Source of the DNA: a virus
IMG/VR virus record: IMGVR_UViG_3300023172_000063
Coordinates: 1-41,493 of that record
Length of the DNA: 41,493 bases
Strand: one strand, 5' to 3'
Part shown: positions 4,027 through 30,110 of the stretch, piece after piece
Position numbering within the stretch: the first letter of the stretch is position 1
Layout of the letters: each line of letters begins with the position of its first letter
Notes under the pieces: generated by a model
The model's input: only the letters and a program-made list of their open reading frames with translations
Databases searched by the model: none
What the model was told of the DNA's origin: nothing
Program-made: the position numbers and the translations under genes

Positions 4027-4216
4027 CACAAAAGTGCTTTTAAGCGCCCAGCAGCTTCAATCGCTGCGCAATGCACAGACGATCACCAGCGAAGAATATG
4101 CTTATGTTGCTGGCGATTTGGTAGTAGCAGAAAATGTGAAGTCAGGAGAAAAAAGAGTCTTGGGATACAAGGCTACCGTTTTGGCAGAGGGAAATAAGCG
4201 AGTCCTCAAGGGATGA
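4016..4216 (+). CDS. Small protein directly upstream of the chaperonin
   Basis: This 66-residue protein begins at the ATG at 4016, chosen because a strong AGGAGGA site lies just upstream inside the end of the FEN gene. The frame stays open upstream but would overlap FEN more deeply. The second half (VAGDLVVAENVKSGEKRVLGYKA, described here only in outline) looks like a short beta-rich segment. The last codons overlap the chaperonin ATG (ATGA). It is not recognisably GroES: it is too short and lacks a visible mobile loop. A partner role is only a positional guess. Confidence 0.65.
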   Translation: MQFDTKVLLSAQQLQSLRNAQTITSEEYAYVAGDLVVAENVKSGEKRVLGYKATVLAEGNKRVLKG

Positions 4217-5823
4217 GCTCTTCTCTGTTATTTGACGAAGAAGCTCGAGCCAAGCTGATTACCGGTGTTGAAAAGCTGGCTGCGGCTGTCAAAGTCACTC
4301 TGGGTCCTATGGGCAAAACCGTGGCAATCTGTCGCAACGGAGAAGTACCGCACTTGACCAAAGACGGCGTGACTGTAGCCAGTTCTGTTTTTCTAGAAGA
4401 TGCTTACGAAAATGTTGGTGCCAGCCTGGTACGTGAGGCAGCGCAACGCAGCGCTGCTGTGGCAGGAGATGGCACAACCACGTCGACTGTGCTGGCCAGC
4501 GAAATCATTCATAACGGCGATAAATTGTTAGCGGCTGGACACAGCGTTGTCGACGTGCTGGACGGCATGAGAGCCGCGGCGGAAGAAGTGACTAAAGAAC
4601 TTGAGTCAACGCGCGTCACAATTGGCGAGGACGAGCTTATCAATGTTGCAACCATTTCAGCCAACGGAGATCGCGACCTAGGTGAGATTATCAGCAGAGC
4701 AATTAATCGAGTCGGTGTTGATGGTGCTGTTTCAGTACAGGATGCAAAAGGTTATGATACCACATTAACCATTGTTGACGGCACTTATATCGACAGAGGA
4801 TATGAGTCGCCTTATTTTGTAACAGATACCGCAAAACAGGTCGCTGAGCTCGATTCTCCTGATGTGCTAGTGGTAAACGATGAGCTGACTGTTCTGGCGC
4901 CTCTGGTGCCTGCCCTGGAGCGCATTGCGGCATCGGGCGGCAGTCTGCTGATAGTTTGCAACGGTGTGAGTGGAGAAGCGCTTCAGGCACTGGTTCTGAA
5001 TCGCGTAAAAGCCGGCTTAAAAGTCTGCGTCATCAAGTCGCCGGAATTTGCTGGAGCTCGAGTCACAGCTCTGCAAGACCTGGCGGCTTTGGTTGGTGCC
5101 ACAGTGGTCACCGACGCAAAACAGGCACTGAAAGCTGAAGAGCTAGATGAAATACTAGGCAGCGTCAAAAAAGCGACTGTCACCAATCGCACCACGCTAC
5201 TTTTTGGCACGCAGCAAAATGACGACGTGCAGAGCCGCGCAAAATCCGCGCGAGAAGTTCTGGACGATCCTGCAATAGGCTCAGACGATAAAAAGATCGC
5301 AGAGAGGCGACTCAAGAGGCTCAGTGACGGCATTGCTGTCATTCAAGTCGGTGGGGCAACCGAGGCAGAAATGTTTGAGAGGCGCGATCGAGTCGACGAT
5401 GCTTTGCATGCGGCCCGAGCAGCTCTGAGAGAAGGGGTACAGCCGGGCGGCGGTGTAGCTCTGGCTCGAGCCAAAAAGCGCGCAGCAAAACAGTTCAAGC
5501 CTAAAAACTCTTACGGTATTGGGGCTCTTGCATTTCTAGACGCTTTGGAGTCGCCTCTGAGGCAGATTGCTGAAAACTGCGGAGTCTCTGCCGATTTGGT
5601 AGTACAAAAAATTAATCGTGTGGCTGTAAATTTCGGCTATGACGGTAAAAATAATAGATATGGAAACATGTTTGAACTTGGCATACTTGATCCACATGCA
5701 GTCGTTGTGTCTGCAGTGGAACATAGTTTGTCAGTTGCGTGTAATTTATTGTCAATTGGGTGTATAATAACAGAGGAATTCTCGAGTGAGAACAACGAAA
5801 TTGCCTACTTTAACAGTATTTAA
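4213..5823 (+). CDS. groEL: Phage-encoded GroEL-type chaperonin (HSP60)
   Basis: This 536-residue protein is close in length to bacterial GroEL. It shows the equatorial ATP site motifs TLGPMGKTV (29-37), DGVTVA (51-56) and GDGTTTSTVLA (from 85, with the catalytic-loop Asp at 86). It also has the apical DRGYESPYFVTD segment, and DALHAARAALREGVQPGGG containing the Asp equivalent to GroEL D398. GroEL folds proteins in an ATP-driven ring with GroES. Here the C-terminus ends without the Gly-Gly-Met tail, and no GroES gene is evident nearby. Phage chaperonins are known in some large phages and may fold capsid or tail proteins. The start overlaps the previous stop. Confidence 0.95.
   Translation: MSSSLLFDEEARAKLITGVEKLAAAVKVTLGPMGKTVAICRNGEVPHLTKDGVTVASSVFLEDAYENVGASLVREAAQRSAAVAGDGTTTSTVLASEIIHNGDKLLAAGHSVVDVLDGMRAAAEEVTKELESTRVTIGEDELINVATISANGDRDLGEIISRAINRVGVDGAVSVQDAKGYDTTLTIVDGTYIDRGYESPYFVTDTAKQVAELDSPDVLVVNDELTVLAPLVPALERIAASGGSLLIVCNGVSGEALQALVLNRVKAGLKVCVIKSPEFAGARVTALQDLAALVGATVVTDAKQALKAEELDEILGSVKKATVTNRTTLLFGTQQNDDVQSRAKSAREVLDDPAIGSDDKKIAERRLKRLSDGIAVIQVGGATEAEMFERRDRVDDALHAARAALREGVQPGGGVALARAKKRAAKQFKPKNSYGIGALAFLDALESPLRQIAENCGVSADLVVQKINRVAVNFGYDGKNNRYGNMFELGILDPHAVVVSAVEHSLSVACNLLSIGCIITEEFSSENNEIAYFNSI
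5739..5768 (+). promoter_or_regulatory. Candidate promoter, GTGTAAT-N17-TATAAT
   Basis: GTGTAAT lies at 5739-5745 and TATAAT at 5763-5768, separated by exactly 17 bases, inside the 3' end of the chaperonin gene. Transcription would start near 5775 and lead into the small gene at 5835 and the sigma factor. The same two boxes with the same spacer recur at 8007 and 15058. Confidence 0.6.
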
Positions 5824-6052: not shown

Positions 6053-6766
6053 ATGAAATCAACTTCATTTTCGTTGATTGATTCTATTGGCAAAACAAAG
6101 CTGCTTACGAAAGAAGAAGAACAAGAGCTTTCAAAGCGAATTGAAAAAGGAGACAAACGGGCGCGAGACAAGATGATCAAAGCCAATCTGCGCCTGGCAA
6201 TGAGTGTGGCCAAAAAGTACATCAACAAAGGCGTTGACCTAGAAGACCTTTTCCAAGAGTCTATCATTGGTCTGACGCATGCAGTTGATCGCTTTGACTG
6301 GACCAAGGGATTCAAGTTTTCCACCTATGCTTACTGGTGGATTCAGCAGTCAGTGCGTCAGTATCTGGCTGCTAACTGCGGCCCGATCGATCTGCCTTCT
6401 AACACTTTTTTCAAGCTGTATAAAATTTCACAGTTCGAAAAAGACTATCAGAAGCAGTTCGGTCGGCGTCCGACAGACAAAGAAGTGGCTAACATGTTCA
6501 ATACGACGACGAAGACGCTGGCATCGCTGCGACAGTCTGCTGCCTCTTCCGTTTCGCTTGATCAGCCGCGCTATACTAATTCAGATGATGCTGGTCTGGC
6601 ACCCTTGTCTGAAATGATCCCATCAGAAGATATTTCGGCAGAGGAAAAAATCGACGGTGATCGACTGCAGGCCAAGATTCAAGAGGCGCTGCAGACTCTG
6701 ACGGAGCGCGAAAAAATTATCATCAAAATGCGATTTGGCCTCGAAGAAGAGCAAGGAGATATTTAA
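6053..6766 (+). CDS. Sigma-70 family RNA polymerase sigma factor lacking region 4.2
   Basis: This 237-residue protein has region 1.2 (about 11-45) and a complete region 2 (about 40-108), with DLFQESIIGL, FDWTKGFKFSTYAYWW and IQQSVRQ, the core-binding and -10 melting parts. A region 3-like segment follows (about 113-172). Region 4.1 begins at LTEREKIIIKMRFGL (216-230), but the protein ends seven residues later. The helix-turn-helix of region 4.2 that reads the -35 box is therefore missing. The stop overlaps the next ATG (TAATG), and the following gene is unrelated, so this is not an obvious frameshift. T4 gp55, the late sigma factor, also lacks a standard region 4.2. A late-promoter role is inferred. 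Confidence 0.92.
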   Translation: MKSTSFSLIDSIGKTKLLTKEEEQELSKRIEKGDKRARDKMIKANLRLAMSVAKKYINKGVDLEDLFQESIIGLTHAVDRFDWTKGFKFSTYAYWWIQQSVRQYLAANCGPIDLPSNTFFKLYKISQFEKDYQKQFGRRPTDKEVANMFNTTTKTLASLRQSAASSVSLDQPRYTNSDDAGLAPLSEMIPSEDISAEEKIDGDRLQAKIQEALQTLTEREKIIIKMRFGLEEEQGDI

Positions 6767-13143: not shown

Positions 13144-13197
13144 ATGGAGGTAGTACTCCTCATCCTTTTCGACAAAAAGCTAGAGGTGGAGCAATGA
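13144..13197 (+). other. Possible 17-codon upstream ORF
   Basis: In the 109-base gap before 13194, an ATG at 13144 opens a 17-codon frame encoding MEVVLLILFDKKLEVEQ. It ends in a TGA overlapping the next ATG (ATGA). The AGGGG upstream is too close to be a standard ribosome binding site. It may be a coupled leader peptide or chance. The gap also has GGAGGTAGTACTCC, a four-pair hairpin. Confidence 0.2.
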
Positions 13198-13481
13198 AGA
13201 TCACAAAACAACAACTAAGAAGAATTATTCAAGAAGAAAAAGCCCGAATCTTATCGGAACAACCCATGACAAGGTTTCAACTTCGGAGTCATATCCGCGA
13301 CAGAGAACAGTCTCTTCGTGATCGCGCGGATAGAATTTTAAGTCGTGGTATGGCGCTTCCTGCTGAAGGTCAGCTTTGGAATAAAATGTCTGGTGCTCAT
13401 GAGCTTATGAACGACGCTATGGCAGCACTTGATCAGTTTGAGGCGGCTTTACAAGCATTAGAAGATGCTTCTGGTTATTGA
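13194..13481 (+). CDS. Small helical protein with putative capsid-targeting peptide
   Basis: This 95-residue protein begins MKITKQQLRRIIQEE, with I-Q-E at 12-14 and L-S-E at 20-22. T4 internal proteins are directed into the prohead by a short N-terminal helix that is cut by the gp21 protease after (L/I)-x-E. The layout here is the same, and the 13871 protein begins with an aligned peptide. The remainder is charged helix with no enzyme motif. The ribosome binding site AGAGGTGGAG is strong. An internal head-protein role is inferred. Confidence 0.65.
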   Translation: MKITKQQLRRIIQEEKARILSEQPMTRFQLRSHIRDREQSLRDRADRILSRGMALPAEGQLWNKMSGAHELMNDAMAALDQFEAALQALEDASGY

Positions 13482-13484
13482 TAG

Positions 13485-13874
13485 ATGAGAATCGATGCGC
13501 CGCTTAACATGCCTTATCGGCTGTCGGCCCAACCTTCAGGGTCGACACAGCGCATCGAAGAATCTCAGAATCAACCGGTTCAATCAAATCAGGTCGCGCA
13601 GAAAGAAGAGCCTGCAGCAAATCAACCAACTCAGCTCGATGGCCTGAGAAACATTAGCACGCAGGGCTTTTTGGAACTGAAGACGTCCGCAGTTTCCGGC
13701 GAGTTTGCTGTCGATGATACCATTCAAAAGCTGAGTGAGCAACTGGAAGAGATGGCCTCCTTCGTTGATACCTTCAGAAAACTGACCGAGTTGGTGGATC
13801 CTAAGCGCATCGAGCAGCTAGTGATTCAGAAGACGCTAGAGACGATGAACGAGGTTGCCGAGGGCAATAAGTGA
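13485..13874 (+). CDS. Unknown protein with Gln-rich N-terminus and helical C-terminus
   Basis: This 129-residue protein has a low-complexity, Gln/Ser/Pro-rich first half (about 14-50), then helices containing KLSEQLEEMASFVDTFRKL, probably an oligomerising coiled coil. It starts three bases after the previous stop and overlaps the next GTG by four bases. No family recognised. Context suggests a small virion or scaffold component. Confidence 0.6.
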   Translation: MRIDAPLNMPYRLSAQPSGSTQRIEESQNQPVQSNQVAQKEEPAANQPTQLDGLRNISTQGFLELKTSAVSGEFAVDDTIQKLSEQLEEMASFVDTFRKLTELVDPKRIEQLVIQKTLETMNEVAEGNK

Positions 13875-14086
13875 AAGTTAGCCTAAGGCAAATTCGAAAT
13901 CTTATTCGTGAGCAGGCCATGTATCTCACGCCTGAAGACCTTGCAAGACGCCGCGGCGGAGTGCCTATGGGCATTTCTCAAAAACACTGGCAAAAACTGA
14001 CAGACACGACCAGCATGCAGGAAAGTGCTGAAAAACAACTTCGGCTATTCGTTGAAGAATTTATCAAGGGATCAAGCCTTACTTAA
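13871..14086 (+). CDS. Small protein with putative capsid-targeting peptide
   Basis: This 71-residue protein starts at a GTG overlapping the previous TGA. Its first 15 residues, MKVSLRQIRNLIREQ, align without gaps to MKITKQQLRRIIQEE of the 13194 protein. Identities are at M1, K2, Q7, R9, I12 and E14, with conservative changes elsewhere, and I-R-E is a T4 gp21-like cleavage motif. The rest is short and featureless apart from an Arg cluster near 26-28. Its 3' end overlaps the convergent minus-strand gene by eight bases. Confidence 0.6.
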   Translation: MKVSLRQIRNLIREQAMYLTPEDLARRRGGVPMGISQKHWQKLTDTTSMQESAEKQLRLFVEEFIKGSSLT

Positions 14087-14339: not shown

Positions 14340-15037
14340 TATTTTTTCCTATGCTTCTTGACTTGGTTCCACTGCGCAGAATCGACCTTTCTTGCCTTAC
14401 CGCCTTTGAGGAAGGAGTTGACTCTTCCCATGGCCCAAGAGTGGGCGCTCTGCCCCGGCCGTGCTCCGGAGGTGTAAAATGCGCCCATACCTTTTCTATA
14501 GACTGCTTTAAGTGCCCCCAAAGGCGCATTGTGCTTCTTTGCTTTTTTCTTCAGAGCTGCATCAACTTTCTTACTGATCTTTTTTGGCTTCTTTTTCTTA
14601 GCCTCTTCCACGGCGATTTCTGTCAACAAGTCATCTAACAAATCATCTAAAACAGATTCTGAGTACTTACTCTTTTTTGGTTTACCGTAAGTGTTCTTTT
14701 TAGCGATTTCTTCTTCATACTTGTCTCGAGCCTTGCGAGCAGCTTCTTTTTCTTTTTCTGTCTTGGCATTTTTGTATCGATCGGTAAGTTTTCGAAGCTT
14801 GTCGCCTCTTTTGGTGCCCTTCTTAGCTTTGTAACTTGCCGGCAGCTCATCAGACTCAGCAAATAGATCAGGGTGCTTCTTGCGAATTTCTTTATCAGAC
14901 ATTCCAGAAGCTTTCATTCTGGCAATTTTAACGTCATCAAAATCATTTTTGCCGTCTTTGTTTTGGTCTTTGTCTTCCTGCAGAGCCTCGCGCAGCAGGT
15001 CGTCAAGCGATTCATTGAGAACGTCTTCTAGCTTCAT
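14339..15037 (-). CDS. DUF5824-like phage protein with N-terminal (L/I)xE peptide
   Basis: This 232-residue minus-strand protein has GGAG eight bases before its ATG. The N-terminus MKLEDVLNESLDDLLREAL has the length and L-x-E pattern of T4 capsid-targeting peptides (L7-N8-E9). A DKDQNKDGKNDFDD segment (about 22-36) resembles an EF-hand-like Asp/Asn loop. The middle is Lys-rich. The last 60 residues (YRKGMGAFYTSGARPGQ, then HSWAMGRVNSFLKGG) match what I recall of the phage DUF5824 family. Its function is unknown. It is one of few genes opposing the general direction of transcription. Confidence 0.75.
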   Translation of the reverse strand: MKLEDVLNESLDDLLREALQEDKDQNKDGKNDFDDVKIARMKASGMSDKEIRKKHPDLFAESDELPASYKAKKGTKRGDKLRKLTDRYKNAKTEKEKEAARKARDKYEEEIAKKNTYGKPKKSKYSESVLDDLLDDLLTEIAVEEAKKKKPKKISKKVDAALKKKAKKHNAPLGALKAVYRKGMGAFYTSGARPGQSAHSWAMGRVNSFLKGGKARKVDSAQWNQVKKHRKK

Positions 15038-15057
15038 TTATAAATCTCCGATGTTAC

Positions 15058-15087
15058 GTGTAATTATGGTCCAAAGTGTGATAAAAT
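15058..15087 (+). promoter_or_regulatory. Candidate promoter, GTGTAAT-N17-TAAAAT
   Basis: GTGTAAT (15058-15064) and TAAAAT (15082-15087) are 17 bases apart in the gap between divergent genes. Transcription would start about 15094, 20 bases before the UvdE start codon. Confidence 0.6.
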
Positions 15088-15113
15088 CTAATAAACTGCC
15101 CATGGAGAAAGCA

Positions 15114-16052
15114 ATGACAAACCGATACGGTTACTGCTGCATCAATCTTACGCTGCAAAAATCCCGCGGCATCATGACCAATCGCACGATGCGTCGTAAG
15201 ACATTTGACGCTAAGGGCCTGGGTTATGTATCAGAGCTGTCCCTAAAGAACACCACGGACTTAAAAGAGATTATTCAGTGGAATTCTGAGAACGGTTTCG
15301 AAGTGTTTCGCATCACTTCCACCATGTTTCCCTGGGCCAGCGAATACGACTGGAGCGACCTGCCGGATATTGATGCCATCCGAGAGAACTTGCGACATGC
15401 CGGCCAATTGGCACGAGACACAGGACAGCGGCTCTCGTTTCACCCGGGGCCTTTCAATTGCTTGGCATCTCCCAAAGAAGACGTCGTTCTCAACTGTGTG
15501 AAGGATCTTTCGATTCATGGCGATCAGATGGACATGCTCGGCATGCCACGAACACATGAAGCCAAGATCAACATCCACATCGGCGCAGCTTACGGCGATC
15601 GAGAAAAGGCCCTGGACACCTGGTGCCGCAATTTCGAGAGGCTGCCCGAAAATGTGCGCTGTCGGCTGACGGTAGAAAACGACGACAGGGCCAATCTCTA
15701 CTCCACCAAGATGCTTTACGAATCGGTCTACAAGCGCCTGGGAATTCCCATCGTTTTTGATTCTCACCACGCTGCGTGCGGACCTCAGGATTCGACCTAC
15801 GAGGAAGCGTTTCTGATGGCTTACGAGACATGGCCCAAAGGCATTCGGCCTGTCTGCCACCACTCCAACAGCCGCAAAAAGTACGAGGATTCATCCTGTA
15901 GATCCTTGGCAGCACACTCAGACTACTACTACGAGCCTTTCGATTCGTGTGGCAAATCGGTCGATGTTGCCATGGAAGCCAAGGCCAAGGAGCTGGCCGT
16001 CTTTGATTACCTCCAAAAATTTGAGGGCGGACCGGAACGTTTGGTTGCATAA
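15114..16052 (+). CDS. uvsE: UV-damage endonuclease UvdE/UvsE
   Basis: The ATG at 15114 is used because GGAG lies six bases upstream (15104-15107). The open frame extends upstream only as the antisense of the previous gene. The 312-residue protein has UVDE family hallmarks: RYGYCCIN at the start, RLSFHPGPFN, INIHIGAAYGDREKAL, LTVENDD, IVFDSHH and HHSNSRK followed by AHSDYY. These supply the His, Asp and Glu ligands of the metal cluster in its TIM barrel. The enzyme nicks DNA 5' of UV photoproducts in a photolyase-independent pathway. A promoter of the GTGTAAT type precedes it, so it is likely expressed early or in the middle period. Confidence 0.93.
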   Translation: MTNRYGYCCINLTLQKSRGIMTNRTMRRKTFDAKGLGYVSELSLKNTTDLKEIIQWNSENGFEVFRITSTMFPWASEYDWSDLPDIDAIRENLRHAGQLARDTGQRLSFHPGPFNCLASPKEDVVLNCVKDLSIHGDQMDMLGMPRTHEAKINIHIGAAYGDREKALDTWCRNFERLPENVRCRLTVENDDRANLYSTKMLYESVYKRLGIPIVFDSHHAACGPQDSTYEEAFLMAYETWPKGIRPVCHHSNSRKKYEDSSCRSLAAHSDYYYEPFDSCGKSVDVAMEAKAKELAVFDYLQKFEGGPERLVA

Positions 16053-16100: not shown

Positions 16101-16412
16101 ATGCCCCCTATCAAAGAATCCAAACTGAGAGCGATGATTCGCACCGAGCTTAAAAAACGTTTGCTTCAAGAACAAGATGATGCTTCAATTGAAGGTCAAC
16201 AGCTTCAAAAGTTAAAGCAGTTAGCAAATCAGATCGGTGCTGACGAGCCTCAAAAATTGATTGCTGCTCTTAAAAAAGATCGACGCAATACAGCACAGAA
16301 TGAGTTGGTTGCTGATTTTTTTATTAAACTGATGGACAAAGGTCAAAATGTTGATTTGACAAAGCTCAAACAAGCTTTGGCTGCAGCTCCAGACGAAGAA
16401 ACGGAAGCATAA
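16101..16412 (+). CDS. Small helical protein with putative capsid-targeting peptide
   Basis: This 103-residue protein begins PPIKESKLRAMIRTELKK after Met, with L22-Q23-E24 a little further on (LLQEQ). The KLRAMIR part aligns with LRRIIQ and IRNLIR of the 13194 and 13871 proteins. The rest is Gln/Lys/Ala-rich helix with an acidic end. TTAGGAG provides the ribosome binding site. The stop overlaps the ATG of the dismutase gene (TAATG), so the two are coupled. A small internal head protein or chaperone for the dismutase are both possible. Confidence 0.65.
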   Translation: MPPIKESKLRAMIRTELKKRLLQEQDDASIEGQQLQKLKQLANQIGADEPQKLIAALKKDRRNTAQNELVADFFIKLMDKGQNVDLTKLKQALAAAPDEETEA

Positions 16413-17062
16413 TGAAAAAAAGAAAGTCGGGTCAGACTTACGACGATGCCACGTCCAGCAGTCTCTTTCTAGATCGAATCGGCAACGAAAACGAGTGGGA
16501 GCCCGAATATCTTCAGAAGATCAGTGACTACTACAAAAAAATGGGATTGATTCGGGAGTCCTACGGTCATCTCTTTGAGCAGTCTGAAGAGGGCGATTTT
16601 GTGGATGCCATGGCAATTTTGCGACGACTGACAAAAGATGGAGTGGGAGAAGCTGTCGGCTCGGCTCAGTTTGAACAGACCGACCTAGGTCTCATAGTGA
16701 AACTGAAGGCTGAAGGAGTACCACCGGGCGAACATGGCATTCACATCCATGAAAATCCAGATGTGGGCCCGGGAAAAAAAGACGGCAAGATCCAGCCTGG
16801 AATGGCTGCCGGAGGACACTATGATCCAATGGGAACAGGCAAGCATCTGGGACCTTATGGCGATGGACACTTGGGCGATCTGCCTCGAGCTTATGCACTC
16901 GAAGATGGCACAATCGACGCCATTCTTTTGGCGCCTAGGCTAACTCTAGAAGACGTAAGAGGCAGGTCCATTATTGTGCACTCTGGCGGCGATAACTATT
17001 CTTACAAGCCAGATCCGATGGGTGGCGGCAAATCTCGAATGCTAGGAGGTGTGATAGAATGA
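16412..17062 (+). CDS. sodC: Cu/Zn superoxide dismutase with phage-type N-terminal extension
   Basis: Of 216 residues, about 63-216 form a Cu/Zn superoxide dismutase domain. All seven metal ligands are visible: H111 and H113 in HGIHIHE, H136 in AGGHYDP, H145, H153 and D156 in KHLGPYGDGHLGDLP, and H190 in SIIVHSGGDN. The enzyme converts superoxide to hydrogen peroxide and oxygen. The protein contains no cysteine at all, so the conserved intrasubunit disulfide is absent. Instead of the usual periplasmic signal peptide it has a 62-residue charged extension with KKMGLIRES (I47-R48-E49), like the putative capsid-targeting peptides of its neighbours. Genes on both sides overlap it. Confidence 0.93.
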   Translation: MKKRKSGQTYDDATSSSLFLDRIGNENEWEPEYLQKISDYYKKMGLIRESYGHLFEQSEEGDFVDAMAILRRLTKDGVGEAVGSAQFEQTDLGLIVKLKAEGVPPGEHGIHIHENPDVGPGKKDGKIQPGMAAGGHYDPMGTGKHLGPYGDGHLGDLPRAYALEDGTIDAILLAPRLTLEDVRGRSIIVHSGGDNYSYKPDPMGGGKSRMLGGVIE

Positions 17063-17925
17063 AACTTTTTGAAGCACCCCTTGATTCTTTTTTGTACAAG
17101 GACCTGACCTCGACTCTTTACTCTTCGGGCTTTTGGCTGCACGACAATGAGGATCGATTTGGGCGAGAGGCTCTGACAGAATCAGCTGATCTTCTTAAAA
17201 AGACACTGCAGAAATTTTTTAAAAAGCACGGTCTAAACATCAAAGTGGTGGCCGAAAGCTTGAGCGAGGAAGATCACGGTGTCGAGATGCAGTCGGATGA
17301 AAAACCCAATCGATATCTGATCGGCGCCGAAGCGCGCATGTCGACTCGCAGTAAGGGCCAGATCTATCTCAAGATCGTGATGGCTGAAGAAGGTTTTGAT
17401 CCGGAGCTGATCAACGCCAAAAAAGTGGTGGAAGACGTGGCCATCAAGGTACGTCACGAACTGATTCATCTGCGGCAGTATGATTCTTTGGCAAGAGATA
17501 AGGGTATCACCAAATACCAAGCCAAAAAGCAGTATGAAAAGTGGAACGATATTCCAGAGGAAACTGCTCCGGTCACTGATTATCTCAAGTCTCGCATTGA
17601 AATCGACGCTTTCGGCCACGAGTTTGCCGAGCGATTGGCGCAGGAATTTGGCCTGTCTGCCGCGCAGCAAATGGTGGCGAGAAAGGGAGACGTCTCTGAG
17701 CTGGCAAGGCTGGCCGATGAAATTGATCTAGGCTACAACTTTCCGCAGTATTTCAGAGACCATCCAGACTCAGAGTTCACCGAGCGTCTTCGCAAGAAGA
17801 TCAAAAAATACCTGCGTCGTTTTGGCGAGCAGGGCATATATGAGAATGCGCGACGCGCAGAGATAAAAAGCGCCAAAAGGCAGCTGAAAAAAATCATTAG
17901 AGAGATCATTAGATCAGGGCGCTAA
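17059..17925 (+). CDS. Putative HExxH metallopeptidase with C-terminal IIRE helix
   Basis: This 288-residue protein has a zincin signature H133-E134-L-I-H137 in VRHELIHLRQYDS. Possible third ligands are E181, D183 or H187 in IEIDAFGHE. The first 110 residues show no recognised domain. The C-terminal 20 residues, IKSAKRQLKKIIREIIRSGR, align with the N-terminal peptide of the 13194 protein (K-x-x-K-x-Q-L-(K/R)-(K/R)-I-I-x-E). The same helix thus appears at the opposite end of a different protein. The gene overlaps the dismutase gene by four bases. Peptidase activity is inferred from the motif. The substrate is unknown. Confidence 0.65.
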   Translation: MKLFEAPLDSFLYKDLTSTLYSSGFWLHDNEDRFGREALTESADLLKKTLQKFFKKHGLNIKVVAESLSEEDHGVEMQSDEKPNRYLIGAEARMSTRSKGQIYLKIVMAEEGFDPELINAKKVVEDVAIKVRHELIHLRQYDSLARDKGITKYQAKKQYEKWNDIPEETAPVTDYLKSRIEIDAFGHEFAERLAQEFGLSAAQQMVARKGDVSELARLADEIDLGYNFPQYFRDHPDSEFTERLRKKIKKYLRRFGEQGIYENARRAEIKSAKRQLKKIIREIIRSGR

Positions 17926-18001: not shown

Positions 18002-21000
18002 GTGACAGCATTTAGGGTTATAGAAGCTTCGGGTTCGAACGGAGTCATACAGTTTAGCACTGACGGTGATTTTGATTCGAGTCCGAATTTTGTTTTTACA
18101 ACTGGCTCTGAAAGAATGGGCATTGGGGTATCTGACCCTCTTGCCAAGCTTCACGTGTCGGGCAGCACCATTATCGGCGGTCAGCTCACGGACCTGCATC
18201 AGATTACGGGTTCTGCTGAATTTGCTAATCCAGTTTCTGCTTTTCAGGGCTTGTCCGGTTCGCTCACTCAATTAACGGACGGCACCTCTTATCTTATTGC
18301 CGGCAGCAATATCGCAATCTCCTCGCAGTCTAATGGATCAATCACGATTAGTTCGACGGGAGGCGGTACTTCACCGGGCGGCGCTGATACAAATGTTCAG
18401 TACAACGATGGCGGCCTGTTTGGTGGCAATGCTGGATTTACCTACGATGACGCGAATCAGAGGGTTGCAGCAACCCACATAGACGCCAACCTTTCGCTTT
18501 CCGCTTCGATAGTTGTGCCAAGCTCTGGCGACAATTCCATACAGATCACCAGCGGCACTCAAAACTATTCTCCTACCGATACTTTTCTTTTTGTCACCGG
18601 CATCATTGGAGCTAAGGAAGATAACGCCAGAGGCGTTTCGGTTTTTGCCGGCGACGTTTTGGTTTCTGGTGTTCACTATGTTCCTGAGCTTCAGTTTGAC
18701 ACTGAGGCAACTGTAACTGGTCATTCTACCGGCCGAATGTTTTGGGACGACGGCAATAAGACTGTCTCTCTCGATATGCAAGGTTCTGATGTCAGATTGC
18801 AGCTGGGCCAAGAAGAACATGTCTATGCCTTCAACGATTCAGGCGTCGTTATTAATAATGGCGATGCAGTTAGAATATCTGGCGCAAATGGCGGCAATGT
18901 CACCGTCGAAAAGGCAATTGCTTCCGTCAAGTCTTTCAAGAAAGAAATCGAGCAAGATCAAATTCTGGGCGTGGCAACGGAGCAAATCGGCCTCAATCAG
19001 TCGGGATACATTACTACATTCGGTGCCGTACGGGATCTAAATACTTCGACTTTTGCAGCCGGCGACATTCTGTATCTGTCGTCAGTTACTTCCGGAACGT
19101 ACACAAATTCTAGGCCGGCTGCGCCAAATTTTGCGGCCAGAGTGGGAGTTGTTCAGGTTTCTAATGCCACTGAAGGCGTTGTACTGGTAAGGCCCCAAGA
19201 GCCCACGTTCATAACTGACATAGCCCAGATTACGGGATCCGGAGTCATTGCTGGCGGCAAATCTTATCTGTGTTACGATGATACTACAGAAATAGTCTCT
19301 TTTACGAATGCTTTCACGGGATCATTTTTTGCCACCGAGGGCTTAAGCGGATCTCTGACTCAATTGACAGACGGCACATCGTATCTCGTTGCCGGCACCA
19401 ACGTGACCATCACGTCGGAATCAAATGGCTCCGTAACGATATCTTCCGTAGACACACAGGCCGATACCTATTGGGACTCGACCACCAATGGATCCATATT
19501 CACGACTGGATCAGTTGCAATTCCGGGCGCAGAAAACATCGATGCTCCAAGTGATAAAGGCACCGACGTCTTCTTTTATGTCTCAGGGAGTCTAAGTGGA
19601 GACTCTGTTTCGCTTTTTGGCGGCGATCTTTTGGCTTCCGGTGCTGTCACCGCTCAGCTGGGTTTAAGCGGCTCTCTGACGCGTTTGACTGACGGGTCTA
19701 GCTATTTGGTTGCCGGCGATAATGTGACTATTGCATCGTCCTCTAACGGGCAAGTGACGATTGCCGGTACCACTCCGACCAATGCGCAGTATGTAACACT
19801 GGCTAGCGATCCAAATCTCACCGACGAAAGAGTCTTAACCGCTGGTACCGGCATTGATATTACTGACGGAGGTGCCAATAGCACGGTCACCTTAAGCATC
19901 GACGACTCCGTTGTTGCGACCGTCTCAGGCACAACTTTTACCGGTGCAACAATTCATCAGGCCGGTCTGTCAGGTTCTTTGACTCAATTGTCCGATGGTA
20001 CCTCCTATTTGATTGCGGGAGACAATATAACAATTGTTTCGCAGTCCAATGGTGCTATTACTATTTCATCGATTGACACCCAGGCCGATACCTACTGGGA
20101 TTCAACGACCAACGGCTCGATCTTTACGACGGGATCAGTTGCAATACCTGGATCTGAAAGTGTAGATTCTCCATCCGATAAAGGCACTGACGTCTTCTTT
20201 TACGTTTCTGGTGCTCTAGACAATACAAACCGGTCGCTGTTTGGCGGTGATACATATGTTTCTGGCACTGGATACTTCGAACAGGGACTATCAGGTTCTC
20301 TCACACAGCTAGTAGACGGAACGTCCTATCTAATTGCTGGATCTGGCATTGCAATTACCACCGGTTCGAATGGAGCAGTTACGATTACCAACGACGGAAC
20401 TGTTGGCGATATTACTGCAGTCATAGCTGGGAACGGCTTGTTGGGTGGTGGCACCTCGGGCGATGTCACGCTAGAAATCAATGATTCGATCGTTGCAACT
20501 GTCTCGGGCACGACATTCACCGGTGCTACTATTCATCAAGCCGGCCTTTCAGGTTCCCTGACACAGTTATCCGATGGTACGTCTTATTTGGTAGCAGGCG
20601 ACAATGTAACCATTACGTCACAGTCTAACGGCTCGATAACAATCAGCTCAGTTGACACTCAGGCCGATACCTACTGGGACTCAACAACGAACGGCTCAAT
20701 CTTTACGACTGGATCGGTTGCAATTCCAGGCTCTGAATCTGTAGATTCTCCAAGCGATAAGGGCACTGACGTCTTCTTCTACGTGTCGGGCTCTTTGAAT
20801 TCTTCTGATGTATCGTTGTTTGGTGGAGATGTCATTACCTCGGGTTCTGTTTCAGGCCTGTTAGGACTGAGTGGCTCTCTTACACAACTAACAGACGGTA
20901 CCTCTTATCTCATTGCCGGCAGCAATGTTGAAATTACATCAGCATCGAATGGAGCTGTTACGATATCAGCGCCGACTGCTGGCGGCGGAGCTCCAACAAA

Positions 21001-24000
21001 TGCACAGTACGTAACGCTAGCGTTAAATGCAACCCTGACCGACGAAAGAGTACTGACTAGCGGAACAGGCATCGATATTGTCGACGGAGGCGCCAACAGC
21101 AATGTAACTCTCAATATTGACGATTCAGTTGTTGCTACAGTTTCTGGCACTACGTTTACAGGCGCTACGATTCATCAGGCTGGTTTGTCAGGTTCGCTAA
21201 CTCAACTAGCTGATGGCACTTCTTATTTGATTGCCGGCACAAATGTTACTATAACATCCGAGTCTAATGGTGCAGTAACAATTTCGTCAGTCGATACACA
21301 AGCCGATACCTACTGGGAATCAACAACCAATGGATCCATATTCACGACTGGATCCGTAGCGATCCCGGGCGAGGAAAGCGTAGATTCGCCAAGTGATAAA
21401 GGCACTGATGTTTTCTTCTACGTTTCAGGTGCGTTAGACAATACCAATCGTTCTTTATTCGGCGGTGATGTTTATGTATCCGGAACGGGATATTTTGAAC
21501 AAGGCCTATCAGGCTCTCTTACGCAGCTATTAGATGGCACCTCTTATCTTGTTGCCGGCGATGGAATTGCAATTACTACCGGTTCGAATGGATCAGTTAC
21601 AATCACCAATGACGGCACTGTTGGTGATATTACCTCAGTCACTGCCGGAAACGGACTGTTAGGGGGTGGTTCATCAGGTGATGTTACGCTGGAGATTGAC
21701 GATTCAATTGTTGCTACCGTTTCTGGCACTACATTTACCGGTGCTACAATTCACCAAGCCGGTTTGTCTGGATCGCTGACTCAACTAGCTGATGGAACAT
21801 CTTATCTGATTGCTGGAGCCAACGTCACAATCGCTAGTGAGTCCAACGGCGCCGTAACAATTTCTTCAGTCGATACTCAGGCTGATACTTACTGGGACTC
21901 GACAACCAACGGTTCGATCTTTACGACGGGATCAGTCGCTATTCCGGGTGCTGAGTCTGTAGATTCCCCGCTGGACAAGGGAACCGATGTCTTCTTTTAT
22001 GTTTCTGGTGCACTAGACAAAACTCAGACATCGTTGTTTGGTGGGGATATAACAGCTTCCGGTTCTGTTAACGGCTTGTTGGGCCTTAGTGGCTCTTTGA
22101 CTCAATTAACCGATGGTCGATCATATTTAGTTGCCGGATCGAACACGACTATCGTCTCTGAGTCTAATGGTCAAATCACAATTTCAAGTGATACTCCTGC
22201 TGACGCTCAGTACGTGACTCTGGCCCTCAATGCAGAGCTATCTAACGAAAGAGTTCTGACAGGTGGAACAGGCATTGATATTGTCGACGGAGGAGCAAAC
22301 AACAACGTAACTCTAAACATTGACGATTCAATTGTGGCCACTGTATCTGGTACAACTTTTACCGGAGCAACAATCCATCAGGCTGGTCTTTCTGGTTCGT
22401 TGACACAGCTGGCCGATGGCACTTCTTATCTCATTGCTGGAACCAACGTCACAATCACCAGTGAGTCAAATGGCGCTGTAACAATTTCTTCAGTTGATAC
22501 TCAGGCTGATACTTACTGGGACTCGACGACCAATGGTTCAATTTTTACAACTGGATCTGTTGCAATTCCAGGTTCTGAGTCTGTTGACTCGCCAAGTGAT
22601 AAAGGCGCAGACGTCTTTTTTTACGTATCGGGAGCTTTAAATAATACCAACCGCTCTCTTTTTGGTGGCGATGTCTATGTATCGGGAACAGGTTATTTTG
22701 AGCAGGGATTGTCTGGATCGCTAACTCAACTTCTCGATGGTACTTCCTATCTAATTGCCGGCGATGGAATTGCAATTACGACAGGATCAAATGGCGCCGT
22801 AACAATCACAAATGACGGCACAGTGGGAGACATCACGTCAGTAACGGCTGGAAACGGTCTTCTTGGTGGAGGATCTTCAGGTGATGTCACCCTTGAGATT
22901 GACGATTCTATTGTTGCAACAGTATCTGGCACAACATTCACAGGCGCTACTGTTCACCAAGCCGGACTTTCTGGTTCTTTAACTCAGCTGGCTGATGGCA
23001 CCTCTTACCTGATTGCTGGTACAAATGTTACGATTACTTCGGAATCCAACGGTGCCATCACAATTTCTTCGATAGACACGCAAGCCGACACATATTGGGA
23101 TTCCACCACCAACGGATCTATCTTTACAACAGGTTCAGTTGCGATACCTGGCGCTGAATCTGTCGATGCGCCAAGCGATAAAGGCACAGACGTTTTCTTT
23201 TATGTATCTGGCGCGCTAGATAAAACACAGACAGCTTTGTTTGGCGGTGACATTACAGCGTCTGGATCAGTAAATGGCCTGTTAGGACTTAGCGGCTCAC
23301 TCACGCAATTAACAGACGGACGATCTTATTTGGTCGCTGGATCCAATGTAACAATCGTTTCAGAATCAAATGGTCAAGTTACAGTCTCCAGCAACACTCC
23401 TGCAAATGCCCAATATGTCACCCTGGCACTCAATGCTGAATTGACTGATGAAAGAGTTTTAACCGGTGGAACAGGCATCGATATTGTCGACGGAGGGGCA
23501 AATAGCAACGTAACTCTGAATATCGATGATTCAGTTGTGGCGACTGTCAGCGGAACCACATTTACTGGCGCCACTATTCACCAAGCCGGCCTTTCCGGAT
23601 CATTAACTCAGTTGGCCGATGGCACTTCTTATCTCATTGCGGGTACCAATGTTACTATTACCTCAGAGTCCAATGGCGCAGTAACCATAAGCTCTATAGA
23701 TACTCAGGCTGATACTTACTGGGAATCTACTACAAATGGATCTATATTCACGACTGGATCGGTTGCAATACCTGGAGTTGAGAGTGTAGATTCTCCCAGT
23801 GACAAAGGAACGGATGTCTTTTTCTACGTTTCTGGCGCTTTAGACAATACCAATCGATCTTTGTTCGGTGGTGACATTTATGTGTCTGGTACGGGTTACT
23901 TTGAGCAAGGATTGTCAGGATCCCTAACCCAGCTCCTGGATGGCTCTTCTTATCTTGTTGCTGGATCTGGTATTGCAATTACGACCGGCTCAAATGGTTC

Positions 24001-25870
24001 TGTTACCATTACCAATGATGGAACTGTTGGCGATATTACATCGGTCAATGCTGGTAATGGTCTATTGGGTGGCGGTACTTCAGGCGATGTTACTCTTGAG
24101 ATTGATGATTCTATTGTTGCAACCGTCTCAGGTACAACATTCACCGGCGCAACAATTCACCAAGCTGGCCTCTCTGGTTCGTTGACTCAGCTAGCAGACG
24201 GTACATCTTATTTGATTGCCGGCGACAATGTTACTATCACCTCGGAGTCAAATGGCGCAGTAACCATCAGTTCAACGCAGGCTGATACCTACTGGGATTC
24301 AACAACTAACGGATCTATTTTCACAACAGGTTCGGTTGCCATTCCCGGCTCTGAGTCAGTTGATTCTCCAGATGATAAAGGCGCTGATGTCTTCTTTTAC
24401 GTTTCAGGGGCAATCGGGTCAGCAAATGGTGCTTTTCCAGGAGTCTCACTGTTTGGTGGCGATGTTGTTATTTCCGGCTCAATTACGGCTTTGGCCGGCT
24501 TTTCCGGATCTTTTAGCGGATCTTTTACAGGAGACGGCAGCGCTCTAACAAACGTGACTGCCTCCTACGTTTCCTCTTCGGTTATTGAAGGCGGCACAGT
24601 CGGCGAAGTCCTTGCTGTTAACGGCAGTGGTATTTCTGAGTTTACTCATAACCTTGTTGATGCAACTAATACAGCAACTCTAGCTCTAGTTGCTCGATAT
24701 GCTTACGATGGCACCGGTGTGATCTCCCTTGATTGGGGTAATCGTATTCTGGAATATCCTAATGGCGTTGATGCCGTCGATTGGGGAACAAACAACCAAC
24801 TGACCATCACAGGATCCACAGACGTATCAGGCACTCTTAACGTCACCGGCGATACTTCTATTGAGAGCGATCTGTTTGTGACCGGCACTTCTGTCCACCT
24901 AGGGGGCTTATCCGGCTCTCTTACACAGCTGGCCGATGGTACTTCTTATTTGATTGCTGGTCCAGGCGTAACAATTACGTCTGCGTCAAATGGCCCTGTT
25001 ACGATATCTTCTACAGCTGCATCTGTTTCTACCTACTGGGATTCAACAACCAATGGTGCTATATTCACTACGGGTTCAGTCGCAATTCCAGGAGGTGACT
25101 CTGGAACAATAGATGATCCGACGGATAAAGGCACTGATGTTTTCTTTTACGTCTCAGGCGCTCTAGACAAGACTCAGACTGCTCTGTTTGGTGGCGATGT
25201 TACGGCTTCTGGTTCTGTCAATGGTTTGCTTGGTCTATCCGGCTCTCTCACGCAATTAACAGACGGCACCTCTTATTTGATTTCTGGCGATAATGTCATC
25301 ATTACTTCACAGTCAAATGGTTCAGTCACTGTCAGTTCAGTTCAAGCGGATACCTACTGGGATTCGACGACTAACGGATCTATATTCACAACTGGCTCTG
25401 TAGCAATTCCTGGAGCTGAAGCTGGTACCGTAGATGCACCAAGCGATAAAGGAACGGATGTCTTCTTCTATGTTTCTGGCGCCATAAATTCGGCGGGCGG
25501 AGCTTCTGAAGGCGTTTCGGTATTTGGCGGCGATGTTTCAGTTTCTGGTTCTGTCCGCTATTACAATAGCATCACCACACCCACAACTCGCATCACACAA
25601 CCGGTCTATACAGCGACAATCAACGACTATCGAATCGGCGTGAGATACACAGCGACCGATGAAGTGACCATTCAGCTTCCTAAAATTTCAGACGTGGGCG
25701 AGAGAGATCTGAGATTCAAAGACGAAGACGGCAATGCCAAGAAAAACAACATCACGATCGTGGCATCCGGCTCAGATCTGATCGACGGCGATTCGACCGC
25801 GATATTAAATAGAAATTACATTGCCATCAGTCTTTATAACGATGGCACATCCAACTGGTTCATCGAGTAG
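18002..25870 (+). CDS. Giant repeat-containing tail fibre protein
   Basis: This 2622-residue protein starts at a GTG with GAAGG (17991-17995) upstream. The N-terminus has MGIGVSDPLAKLHVSGS, typical of trimeric phage fibres, then a NVQYNDGGLFGG module and a beta module (about 260-400) common in fibre shafts. From about residue 445 to 2510 it consists of tandem modules with about twenty copies of GLSGSLTQLxDGTSYL and eleven copies of a TYWDSTTNGSIFTTGS-type unit. The last 100 residues (YTATINDYRIGVRYTATD to DGTSNWFIE) match the C-terminal domain of many phage fibres. It probably forms a long fibre used for host contact. A lattice or decoration role cannot be excluded. Confidence 0.85.
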   Translation: MTAFRVIEASGSNGVIQFSTDGDFDSSPNFVFTTGSERMGIGVSDPLAKLHVSGSTIIGGQLTDLHQITGSAEFANPVSAFQGLSGSLTQLTDGTSYLIAGSNIAISSQSNGSITISSTGGGTSPGGADTNVQYNDGGLFGGNAGFTYDDANQRVAATHIDANLSLSASIVVPSSGDNSIQITSGTQNYSPTDTFLFVTGIIGAKEDNARGVSVFAGDVLVSGVHYVPELQFDTEATVTGHSTGRMFWDDGNKTVSLDMQGSDVRLQLGQEEHVYAFNDSGVVINNGDAVRISGANGGNVTVEKAIASVKSFKKEIEQDQILGVATEQIGLNQSGYITTFGAVRDLNTSTFAAGDILYLSSVTSGTYTNSRPAAPNFAARVGVVQVSNATEGVVLVRPQEPTFITDIAQITGSGVIAGGKSYLCYDDTTEIVSFTNAFTGSFFATEGLSGSLTQLTDGTSYLVAGTNVTITSESNGSVTISSVDTQADTYWDSTTNGSIFTTGSVAIPGAENIDAPSDKGTDVFFYVSGSLSGDSVSLFGGDLLASGAVTAQLGLSGSLTRLTDGSSYLVAGDNVTIASSSNGQVTIAGTTPTNAQYVTLASDPNLTDERVLTAGTGIDITDGGANSTVTLSIDDSVVATVSGTTFTGATIHQAGLSGSLTQLSDGTSYLIAGDNITIVSQSNGAITISSIDTQADTYWDSTTNGSIFTTGSVAIPGSESVDSPSDKGTDVFFYVSGALDNTNRSLFGGDTYVSGTGYFEQGLSGSLTQLVDGTSYLIAGSGIAITTGSNGAVTITNDGTVGDITAVIAGNGLLGGGTSGDVTLEINDSIVATVSGTTFTGATIHQAGLSGSLTQLSDGTSYLVAGDNVTITSQSNGSITISSVDTQADTYWDSTTNGSIFTTGSVAIPGSESVDSPSDKGTDVFFYVSGSLNSSDVSLFGGDVITSGSVSGLLGLSGSLTQLTDGTSYLIAGSNVEITSASNGAVTISAPTAGGGAPTNAQYVTLALNATLTDERVLTSGTGIDIVDGGANSNVTLNIDDSVVATVSGTTFTGATIHQAGLSGSLTQLADGTSYLIAGTNVTITSESNGAVTISSVDTQADTYWESTTNGSIFTTGSVAIPGEESVDSPSDKGTDVFFYVSGALDNTNRSLFGGDVYVSGTGYFEQGLSGSLTQLLDGTSYLVAGDGIAITTGSNGSVTITNDGTVGDITSVTAGNGLLGGGSSGDVTLEIDDSIVATVSGTTFTGATIHQAGLSGSLTQLADGTSYLIAGANVTIASESNGAVTISSVDTQADTYWDSTTNGSIFTTGSVAIPGAESVDSPLDKGTDVFFYVSGALDKTQTSLFGGDITASGSVNGLLGLSGSLTQLTDGRSYLVAGSNTTIVSESNGQITISSDTPADAQYVTLALNAELSNERVLTGGTGIDIVDGGANNNVTLNIDDSIVATVSGTTFTGATIHQAGLSGSLTQLADGTSYLIAGTNVTITSESNGAVTISSVDTQADTYWDSTTNGSIFTTGSVAIPGSESVDSPSDKGADVFFYVSGALNNTNRSLFGGDVYVSGTGYFEQGLSGSLTQLLDGTSYLIAGDGIAITTGSNGAVTITNDGTVGDITSVTAGNGLLGGGSSGDVTLEIDDSIVATVSGTTFTGATVHQAGLSGSLTQLADGTSYLIAGTNVTITSESNGAITISSIDTQADTYWDSTTNGSIFTTGSVAIPGAESVDAPSDKGTDVFFYVSGALDKTQTALFGGDITASGSVNGLLGLSGSLTQLTDGRSYLVAGSNVTIVSESNGQVTVSSNTPANAQYVTLALNAELTDERVLTGGTGIDIVDGGANSNVTLNIDDSVVATVSGTTFTGATIHQAGLSGSLTQLADGTSYLIAGTNVTITSESNGAVTISSIDTQADTYWESTTNGSIFTTGSVAIPGVESVDSPSDKGTDVFFYVSGALDNTNRSLFGGDIYVSGTGYFEQGLSGSLTQLLDGSSYLVAGSGIAITTGSNGSVTITNDGTVGDITSVNAGNGLLGGGTSGDVTLEIDDSIVATVSGTTFTGATIHQAGLSGSLTQLADGTSYLIAGDNVTITSESNGAVTISSTQADTYWDSTTNGSIFTTGSVAIPGSESVDSPDDKGADVFFYVSGAIGSANGAFPGVSLFGGDVVISGSITALAGFSGSFSGSFTGDGSALTNVTASYVSSSVIEGGTVGEVLAVNGSGISEFTHNLVDATNTATLALVARYAYDGTGVISLDWGNRILEYPNGVDAVDWGTNNQLTITGSTDVSGTLNVTGDTSIESDLFVTGTSVHLGGLSGSLTQLADGTSYLIAGPGVTITSASNGPVTISSTAASVSTYWDSTTNGAIFTTGSVAIPGGDSGTIDDPTDKGTDVFFYVSGALDKTQTALFGGDVTASGSVNGLLGLSGSLTQLTDGTSYLISGDNVIITSQSNGSVTVSSVQADTYWDSTTNGSIFTTGSVAIPGAEAGTVDAPSDKGTDVFFYVSGAINSAGGASEGVSVFGGDVSVSGSVRYYNSITTPTTRITQPVYTATINDYRIGVRYTATDEVTIQLPKISDVGERDLRFKDEDGNAKKNNITIVASGSDLIDGDSTAILNRNYIAISLYNDGTSNWFIE
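19335..25520 (+). repeat. Tandem protein-coding repeats, alternating A and B modules
   Basis: Markers encoding A-T-I/V-H-Q-A-G-L-S-G occur near 19948, 20522, 21162, 21740, 22364, 22943, 23570 and 24147. Spacings alternate between about 577 and about 630 bases. The shorter module (A) contains TGYFEQGLSGS and TNDGTVGDIT. The longer one (B) contains ALNAELTDERVLTGGTGIDI and GLLGLSGSLT. An A+B pair is about 1.2 kb. The amino-acid copies are nearly identical, but the DNA differs at many synonymous positions. Confidence 0.9.
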
Positions 25871-28819: not shown

Positions 28820-29485
28820 ATGGCGCGCAGAACTTCTATTATCGATGATAACCAGCAAGCTCTGATTGAGGACGGCGGATATCTGCGCGTGTCTCCTGCA
28901 CCATTTCCGCCAGATGACGAAAGAGATATTCAGAAGGTCTTCCGTGATTTTTTGACTCTGGATGGGGATGGCACAACATCAAGCATGCTTGTTGACGGCT
29001 CCACAACTTCGCAGCTTTTTTATATTCAAGCCGTGCCAAATCTGGACATTTATATTACCAGCGTATCTTTTTTGATAGCTGCAACTGGCGTGTCACTTGG
29101 CAATGATTTTTTGGGCATTGGCTCGGCATTGACTAACGGGGTGCGAATATATTACGAAGACAACAATGGCGAAACAAATATTGCCACGGATCTGATCGTT
29201 AACTTCAGTTTTATTCGGTTGTGCCAGGGTAATCCAGCCTTTGGCGATGCCGCTAATGCTTTTTTGGCTCCGTCAATTTCAGGTAGCGGTAAGAACGTCT
29301 CTGACGGTTATTTGCCTGTTTTGGATTTCAAAGGCGTATTTGGCTTTCAGTACGGTTTGAAGTTGGCCAAAAATACCAATCACCGCCTGGTCGTCGAAAT
29401 CAATGACGATCTCACAGCAGGCACTGTTGGCGCCGGCGCTCAGTTCGATGCAATTGCTTACGGCTTTGAGCGCAAGGAAGGCTGA
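28820..29485 (+). CDS. Virion-type beta protein, possible distant relative of the paralogues
   Basis: This 221-residue protein has a preceding GAGGTAATA ribosome binding site. It begins with a different sequence (IIDDNQQALIEDGGYLRVSP). It keeps a similar plan, with FYIQAVPNLDIYITSVSFLI near 68-87 in the place of the ENNEDKD strand and KNTNHRLVVEINDDL near 187-201 in the place of the KGxS strand. Relationship to the four upstream paralogues is likely by size, position and pattern but not proved by clear identity. No enzyme motif seen. Confidence 0.6.
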   Translation: MARRTSIIDDNQQALIEDGGYLRVSPAPFPPDDERDIQKVFRDFLTLDGDGTTSSMLVDGSTTSQLFYIQAVPNLDIYITSVSFLIAATGVSLGNDFLGIGSALTNGVRIYYEDNNGETNIATDLIVNFSFIRLCQGNPAFGDAANAFLAPSISGSGKNVSDGYLPVLDFKGVFGFQYGLKLAKNTNHRLVVEINDDLTAGTVGAGAQFDAIAYGFERKEG

Positions 29486-29486
29486 T

Positions 29487-30110
29487 TTGGAATTTTATCC
29501 TCCCACCAAGATCAAAGTGGCGCAATCTCCTGGAAAGGGCCTAGGTGTATTTGCCACCGAAGCTATTTCGGCCGGAGAAGTCATCGAGTGCACGCCTATT
29601 CACTCTCTCAGTTCAGAAGACGAATCCCTCCGCGACTATCAGTTCTGCTATCCCAAGTCTCTAAATTATCGAGAACAGGTGCTGGCTTGGGGCTACGGCT
29701 CGCTCTACAATCACAGTTCCGAGCCCAATTGCTGCTGGAGAAACCATCCTGAATTTCGAGGTTTTGAGTATTATGCGCTACGCGATATTCACTCGGGTGA
29801 AGAGCTGTTGATAAACTACGGCGGCACTCCATATTGGCAAAATGGTCGCGATCACGTGGAAGTCGTGGAGCCCGAAAGAAGCTACGCCTATTTCAGTCTT
29901 TCTCCCGACGACATGGCTAAACAGCTTTCCGAAGCCGGCATTCCCTGCTACAATCTGATTTCCAATCCGATGGATTTTGATTATTATAATGTCAAGCAAT
30001 TTCCTACGCTTTTAGTTTTGGACGAAAACAAAAATGTGATAGGGCAAACATCCGGCCGCGGAAAGATTCTGGCCGTGATTAACCGCAAAAAACTTCTGGA
30101 GTTTTCATGA
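29487..30110 (+). CDS. SET-domain protein with thioredoxin-like C-terminal part
   Basis: The start is a TTG at 29487, two bases after the previous stop, with AAGGAAGG just upstream. The frame is open further upstream but lies inside the previous gene. The 207-residue product has SET motifs: GKGLGVFATEAISAGE (16-31), YNHSSEPNC (74-82) and GEELLINYG (104-112). These bind S-adenosylmethionine and form the lysine channel in protein lysine methyltransferases. Residues about 136-205 resemble the second half of a thioredoxin fold, with QFPTLLVLDENKNVIG (171-186, containing the usual cis-Pro position). It overlaps the next gene by ATGA. A virion-protein substrate is a guess. Confidence 0.8.
   Translation: MEFYPPTKIKVAQSPGKGLGVFATEAISAGEVIECTPIHSLSSEDESLRDYQFCYPKSLNYREQVLAWGYGSLYNHSSEPNCCWRNHPEFRGFEYYALRDIHSGEELLINYGGTPYWQNGRDHVEVVEPERSYAYFSLSPDDMAKQLSEAGIPCYNLISNPMDFDYYNVKQFPTLLVLDENKNVIGQTSGRGKILAVINRKKLLEFS

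Follow-up and report, generated by a model that had tools for sequence, protein, structure and literature searches.

Cu/Zn superoxide dismutases of the bacterial periplasmic type (SodC) are known from lambdoid prophages such as Gifsy-2 and Fels-1, and the SodCs of IMG/VR prophages keep both their export signal and their two disulfide cysteines, i.e., they are exported enzymes that alter the host. Superoxide dismutases (SODs) have been reported in general terms from freshwater phages (PMC6802176), and virions of the chlorovirus PBCV-1 contain a packaged, active Cu/Zn SOD (PMC7019647). Phage T4, for its part, packs diverse internal proteins by means of a short targeting sequence at their N-terminus, which is cut off by gp21; its IPI, IPII, and IPIII are unrelated small proteins with a common short N-terminal peptide ending at a gp21-type [L/I]xE site (PMC9026906, PMC3012670).

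Here we describe a SodC gene within a 41,493-nucleotide stretch of viral DNA (IMG/VR record IMGVR_UViG_3300023172_000063, positions 1 to 41,493), which we call the window. Like the SodCs of Gifsy-2 and Fels-1, this gene is phage-borne, and its product shares fold, ligands, and active-site Arg with the periplasmic SodCs of Brucella (4l05), Salmonella (1eqw), and E. coli (1eso), at 44-49% domain identity. Unlike those enzymes, it has no signal peptide and no disulfide cysteines and bears an extra N-terminal leader; the prophage SodCs of IMG/VR differ from it in retaining both signal and cysteines. The PBCV-1 enzyme, A245R, is likewise a viral Cu/Zn SOD, but that of a eukaryotic virus.

A SodC without cysteines or an export signal

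The ORF at 16412-17062 (+) comprises 216 codons and a stop, with frame, coordinates, and sequence confirmed, and encodes a leader, a linker, and a Cys-free SodC domain. Its ATG overlaps the stop codon of the ORF at 16101-16412 (TAATG), and its stop codon overlaps the ATG of the ORF at 17059-17925 (ATGA). The product matches Pfam Sod_Cu (PF00080) with an E value of 1e-25 and 91.2 bits against a curated cut-off of 28.9, and phrog_1975, "superoxide dismutase precursor", at 4e-43. The domain occupies residues 72-216 (16625-17059, +), and the seven Cu/Zn ligands listed in a preliminary description of this DNA (H111, H113, H136, H145, H153, D156, and H190) are all present, in register with the ligands of 91 other SodCs, while the guiding Arg of the active site, R209 here, is kept in 92/92 aligned sequences. 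The same description had proposed a structure prediction of the domain; the AlphaFold2 model is a confident SodC beta-barrel (pLDDT >90 over most of the domain) with a poorly determined N-terminal part, and its best Foldseek match is the Brucella SodC 4l05 (TM 0.93 to the target), which is also the closest solved structure. Per homology and the predicted model, the ORF is a bacterial-type Cu/Zn SodC. These residues also bear on whether the product might be a head or tail component with a structural or metal-binding role, built on a SOD fold and without dismutase activity. Inactive SOD-like folds are known, e.g., B. subtilis YojM, and the virion-like, Cys-free surroundings of the gene would suit such a role, but 4/4 phage SodCs, two of them just 55% identical to that of the window, retain every one of the seven ligands as well as the guiding Arg, and we consider this explanation unlikely.

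The window SodC contains no cysteine anywhere, its two disulfide positions being V118 and G212. Both disulfide cysteines are present in 88/92 SodCs of an alignment made up of 80 bacterial loci, picked as best matches, and viral ones; both are missing in 3/92, namely in the window and in the phage contigs L028 and L035. The conserved intrasubunit disulfide is usual in Cu/Zn SOD and is not demanded by the PF00080 family model. One row of the alignment, the SodC of Acinetobacter "phage MD-2021a" (H5), served as an alignment row only; we rejected it as a phage gene because its neighbours, yccS and mdfA, look bacterial-chromosomal. No signal peptide was found in the window SodC, the highest 15-residue hydropathy in its extension being -0.09, compared to a median N-terminal peak of 1.97 in 88 bacterial and prophage SodCs. 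The missing disulfide and the missing export signal, both claimed in the preliminary description, are thus borne out. Relatives with a Sec signal and cysteines at this locus had been named there as evidence that would speak against the claim; the syntenic SodC of L028 (73.9 kb), 77% identical to the window SodC, is wholly Cys-free and signal-free.

The proposed survey of phage SodCs for the loss of both cysteines yielded, besides the window and L028, two further cases. L035:2929-3489 (IMGVR_UViG_3300030098_006784), on an apparently unrelated phage contig, encodes a SodC with neither disulfide cysteines nor a signal peptide, nor the leader and tag described below. In a maximum-likelihood tree, the window SodC groups with that of L028 (100/100) and then with that of L035 (97/90), on long branches. 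The second case, P0002, is not included in that tree; it was found by a PF00080 search of tag-bearing phage records (L243:1498-2208, -, of record IMGVR_UViG_3300032087_006453) and is a 237-aa protein whose SOD domain is without cysteine. Its N-terminus matches a YHS-like metal-binding domain (CPVSGKPI ... YHFCSRGH) at E 0.0016, below Pfam's cut-off, which is possibly a built-in metal-delivery module and at most a hint of how copper could be loaded without export.

A second family, of the SOD1 type, is found in aquatic phage contigs in IMG/VR (L267-L304; 31 distinct sequences). These SODs show no evident export signal and retain the disulfide cysteines, and in almost all rows whose N-terminus is complete an [LI]xE motif lies just before the fold, at about -50 from HxHE, with a varying middle residue. 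They bear an N-terminal CPRT..CQCE segment, and in L273, L275, L280, and L303 the SOD is fused to a much longer protein. In phages, then, signal-free SODs are not rare, while a wholly Cys-free SodC is.

The main rival to the head-cargo account given below is that the SodC is an unpacked, cytoplasmic auxiliary enzyme of infection with an accidental leader, its losses fitting the reducing cytoplasm, in which the disulfide of a SodC would not be made. This would account for the kept active site together with the lost signal and cysteines with no need for packaging; the same losses recur in L035, and P0002 has its YHS-like domain in place of a leader. We regard this reading as possible, though on balance we would not expect it to be correct, since it leaves unexplained the fixed [LI]xE before the fold in the SOD1-type family as well as several features of the extension and gene neighbourhood to which we now turn.

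A leader shared with the adjacent HExxH protein

The preliminary description had a 62-residue charged extension stand in for the signal peptide. We find instead about 71 residues ahead of the SOD fold, and these are composite. Residues 1-49 (16412-16558, +), with a net charge of 0, form a leader that two related phages carry on their HExxH protein and that ends in the prohead-protease-like IRE/S (the slash marking the putative cleavage position); helices are predicted by AlphaFold2, at low confidence, for residues 12-23 and 31-50. Residues 50-71 (16559-16624, +) are the SOD's own N-terminal linker with LFE/Q, which in L028 reads MIRKVFSHLFE/Q, so that the SOD's own N-terminus corresponds to residues ~47-71 of the window ORF. 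Two candidate [L/I]xE sites, IRE/S and LFE/Q, are present ahead of the SOD domain, though motifs of this kind are too short for significance alone.

The window phage is collinear over most of its length with the 284-kb record G002, its closest long relative. No SodC was found in G002, where the leader is fused directly onto the homologue of the window's next gene, a 288-aa Cys-free HExxH protein (17059-17925, +). L028, likewise collinear, has a separate, leaderless SodC gene starting MIRKVFSHLFEQ, followed by the leader plus HExxH protein. The leader of the window SOD is 60-64% identical to those of the HExxH proteins of the two relatives, and the window's HExxH protein begins where the relatives' leader ends (MKLFE/A compared to M-x-LI-x-E/Q). 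Since the leader sits directly on the neighbouring protein in the relatives, and since the window protein restarts at [L/I]xE, the extension is, as far as these alignments indicate, a movable N-terminal module exchanged at the [L/I]xE motif. The absence of a signal peptide thus stands, but the SodC has been joined to a leader that belongs to the neighbouring HExxH protein. The HExxH protein itself has no Pfam match, and its low-confidence model gave no convincing fold match. A search for the leader on other proteins in 23 further tag-bearing records returned weak matches in L247 (E 8e-6) and L248 (E 1.5e-5).

Because the gene order differs from that of both relatives, we considered whether the leader-SOD join could be an artefact of assembly. 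A second, independently named IMG/VR record of 75.7 kb, which matches the window at 99.98% identity across 41 kb, carries the same leader-SodC ORF, however, and the ORF overlaps both its neighbours by start and stop codons. An artefact is accordingly extremely improbable, and the second record led us to reject both it and chance as explanations of the join. The sharing of the leader with a neighbour is, in turn, not explained by a cytoplasmic enzyme whose leader is accidental.

A tagged, cysteine-poor gene cluster and the prohead protease

Near the SOD locus, a recurring N-terminal tag, KITKRQLRRIIKEEkarLLxE, is found. In G002, many small unrelated proteins begin MKITKRQLRRIIKEEKARLLxE, with clusters at 184-188 and 270-284 kb that surround the position equivalent to that of the window SOD; the dense stretches run from 183969 to 189226 and from 270719 to 284375. 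Two ORFs of G002 (274326-275036 and 273550-274377) have two tags each, as if adjacent cargo genes had fused. Searching viral contigs with the tag in back-translated form gave 63 stretches that contain it, and the tag stands at the N-terminus in 289/311 tagged ORFs, which amount to 273 distinct proteins of large phages. When 51 of the largest were compared to Pfam and PHROG, few matched any family, an HD phosphohydrolase being among those that did. A text search for the tag sequence found no mention among open-licence papers. As far as that literature shows, the tag class, its cysteine poverty, and the leader swap that brings in the SodC are new, while SodC, the PBCV-1 virion SOD, freshwater phage SODs, and T4 targeting sequences were already known.

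In the window, a 95-aa Cys-free protein (13194-13481, +) carries the canonical tag KITKQQLRRIIQEEKARILSE/Q with a position-specific scoring matrix (PSSM) score of 59, and a 71-aa Cys-free protein (13871-14086, +) carries the tag KVSLRQIRNLIRE/Q with a score of 18; between them, in the same cluster, lies an untagged 129-aa Cys-free protein (13485-13874, +). Directly upstream of the SOD, a 103-aa Cys-free protein (16101-16412, +), whose homologues in L003 and L028 occupy the same position, has a divergent N-terminal tag, IKESKLRAMIRTELKKRLLQE/Q, which is a weak match (score 0.5, a value attained by 0.03% of shuffles). The gene before it (14880-16052, +; true start probably near 15114) encodes a Cys-rich UvdE-type UV endonuclease that flanks the cluster and is conserved as a neighbour across the three phages. 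The window SOD with its leader does not match the KITKRQLRRIIKE-tag PSSM (score -19.7, a value attained by 11% of shuffles). A C-terminal tag on 17059-17925, seen by eye, was dropped as it is unsupported by the PSSM in a fixed 22-residue register, and the T4-type late promoter TATAAATA is absent from the window.

Several other genes of the window may be recorded here. Directly downstream of the SOD cluster, 18002-25870 encodes a 2622-aa repetitive protein with weak carbohydrate-binding and phage-tail matches, whose internal blocks align with one another at 73-84% DNA identity. A phage GroEL-like chaperonin (4213-5823; Cpn60, E 2e-61) lies near a sigma-factor-like gene (6053-6766), a SET-domain-like protein, identified by eye, is encoded among the tail-region genes (29403-30110), and 38700-39737 encodes a protein resembling glutamine synthetase, whose catalytic domain is matched in part.

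Among the small proteins of G002, 92% of the tagged ones are Cys-free (0.09% Cys), compared to 28% of the untagged ones (1.46% Cys; p 3e-10). The six cluster genes of the window total 902 aa with zero cysteines (p 9e-4 against the rest of the window and 1e-7 against its enzyme-like genes), and these p values are optimistic in that the cluster was chosen after inspection. As cysteine is scarce in the tagged class and absent from the window cluster, the cysteine loss of the SodC is most readily understood as something it shares with the tagged proteins around it as a class, and not solely as an adaptation of the SOD. The preliminary description had read it as an adaptation to the reducing cytoplasm or the particle interior; the context fits either place, but the loss is better attributed to the class. 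Neither the location within a tagged cluster nor the cluster-wide absence of cysteine is explained if the SodC is simply a cytoplasmic enzyme.

G002 also encodes a gp21-type protease (82430-83035; PF03420, E 6e-27) within a T4-like head module. The window and its 75.7-kb twin are fragments that exclude the head module, and it is thus in the relative alone that the protease is seen. A gp21-type prohead protease is present in 14/15 tag-bearing records of 100 kb or more, and eight shorter tag-bearing records are without one, as expected of fragments; by a rough comparison, 2/6 SOD1-bearing records in that length range have it. In 14/14 modules, the protein encoded one or two genes after the protease begins like MAKxxRxxLKxLxKECLVEILxE, and the next is also tag-like. 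Of 11 conserved head-module proteins, the tag PSSM matches two, whose genes lie between those for the protease and the scaffold, and [LI]xE[AGSQ] is enriched about 11-fold just past the tag relative to protein bodies.

The SodC as putative head cargo

A leader in common with an otherwise unrelated protein, the tagged cluster, and the gp21-type protease of a relative together favour the SodC being head cargo of a large contractile-tailed (T4-like) phage, to which we give about an even chance. The leader, taken over from the neighbouring HExxH protein, would act as an N-terminal propeptide that carries the SodC into the prohead core, and the gp21-type prohead protease would remove it at [L/I]-x-E (IRE/S and/or LFE/Q). 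The mature, disulfide-free SodC would then be ejected with the DNA, or act on the packed genome, and remove superoxide; packaging, cleavage, metal loading, activity, and benefit are all inferred parts of this account. The class-wide loss of cysteine would also free the SodC from needing oxidative folding. The likeness to the T4 internal proteins is architectural: the tag here is longer, differs in sequence, and occurs on far more proteins, which are putative cargo, and the window SOD carries a different leader.

Against head cargo, the SOD and its leader fail the canonical tag profile, and the missing tag counts in favour of a cytoplasmic enzyme. The L035 SodC, which lost its disulfide with no tag or leader, also counts against packaging, and the SOD1-type phage SODs, which keep their disulfide cysteines, indicate that packaging alone does not require cysteine loss. 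We nevertheless propose, tentatively and with slightly less than even confidence, that the T4-like phages of this group use a new capsid address (KITKRQLRRIIKEEkarLLxE and alternative leaders) to fill the head with dozens of Cys-free cargo proteins cut by a gp21-type protease, and that the SodC was recruited by a leader swap at the protease site, shedding its signal and disulfide.

Should the tag prove to be a capsid address, hundreds of small, uncharacterised proteins of large phages would become recognisable from sequence as injected cargo, a pool in which counter-defence proteins would be expected. The SOD would then be a member of that cargo with a clear chemistry, meaning that phages supply antioxidant enzymes along with the injected DNA, and it would offer a natural experiment on which features of SodC, namely export and the disulfide, are dispensable inside the particle or the cytoplasm.
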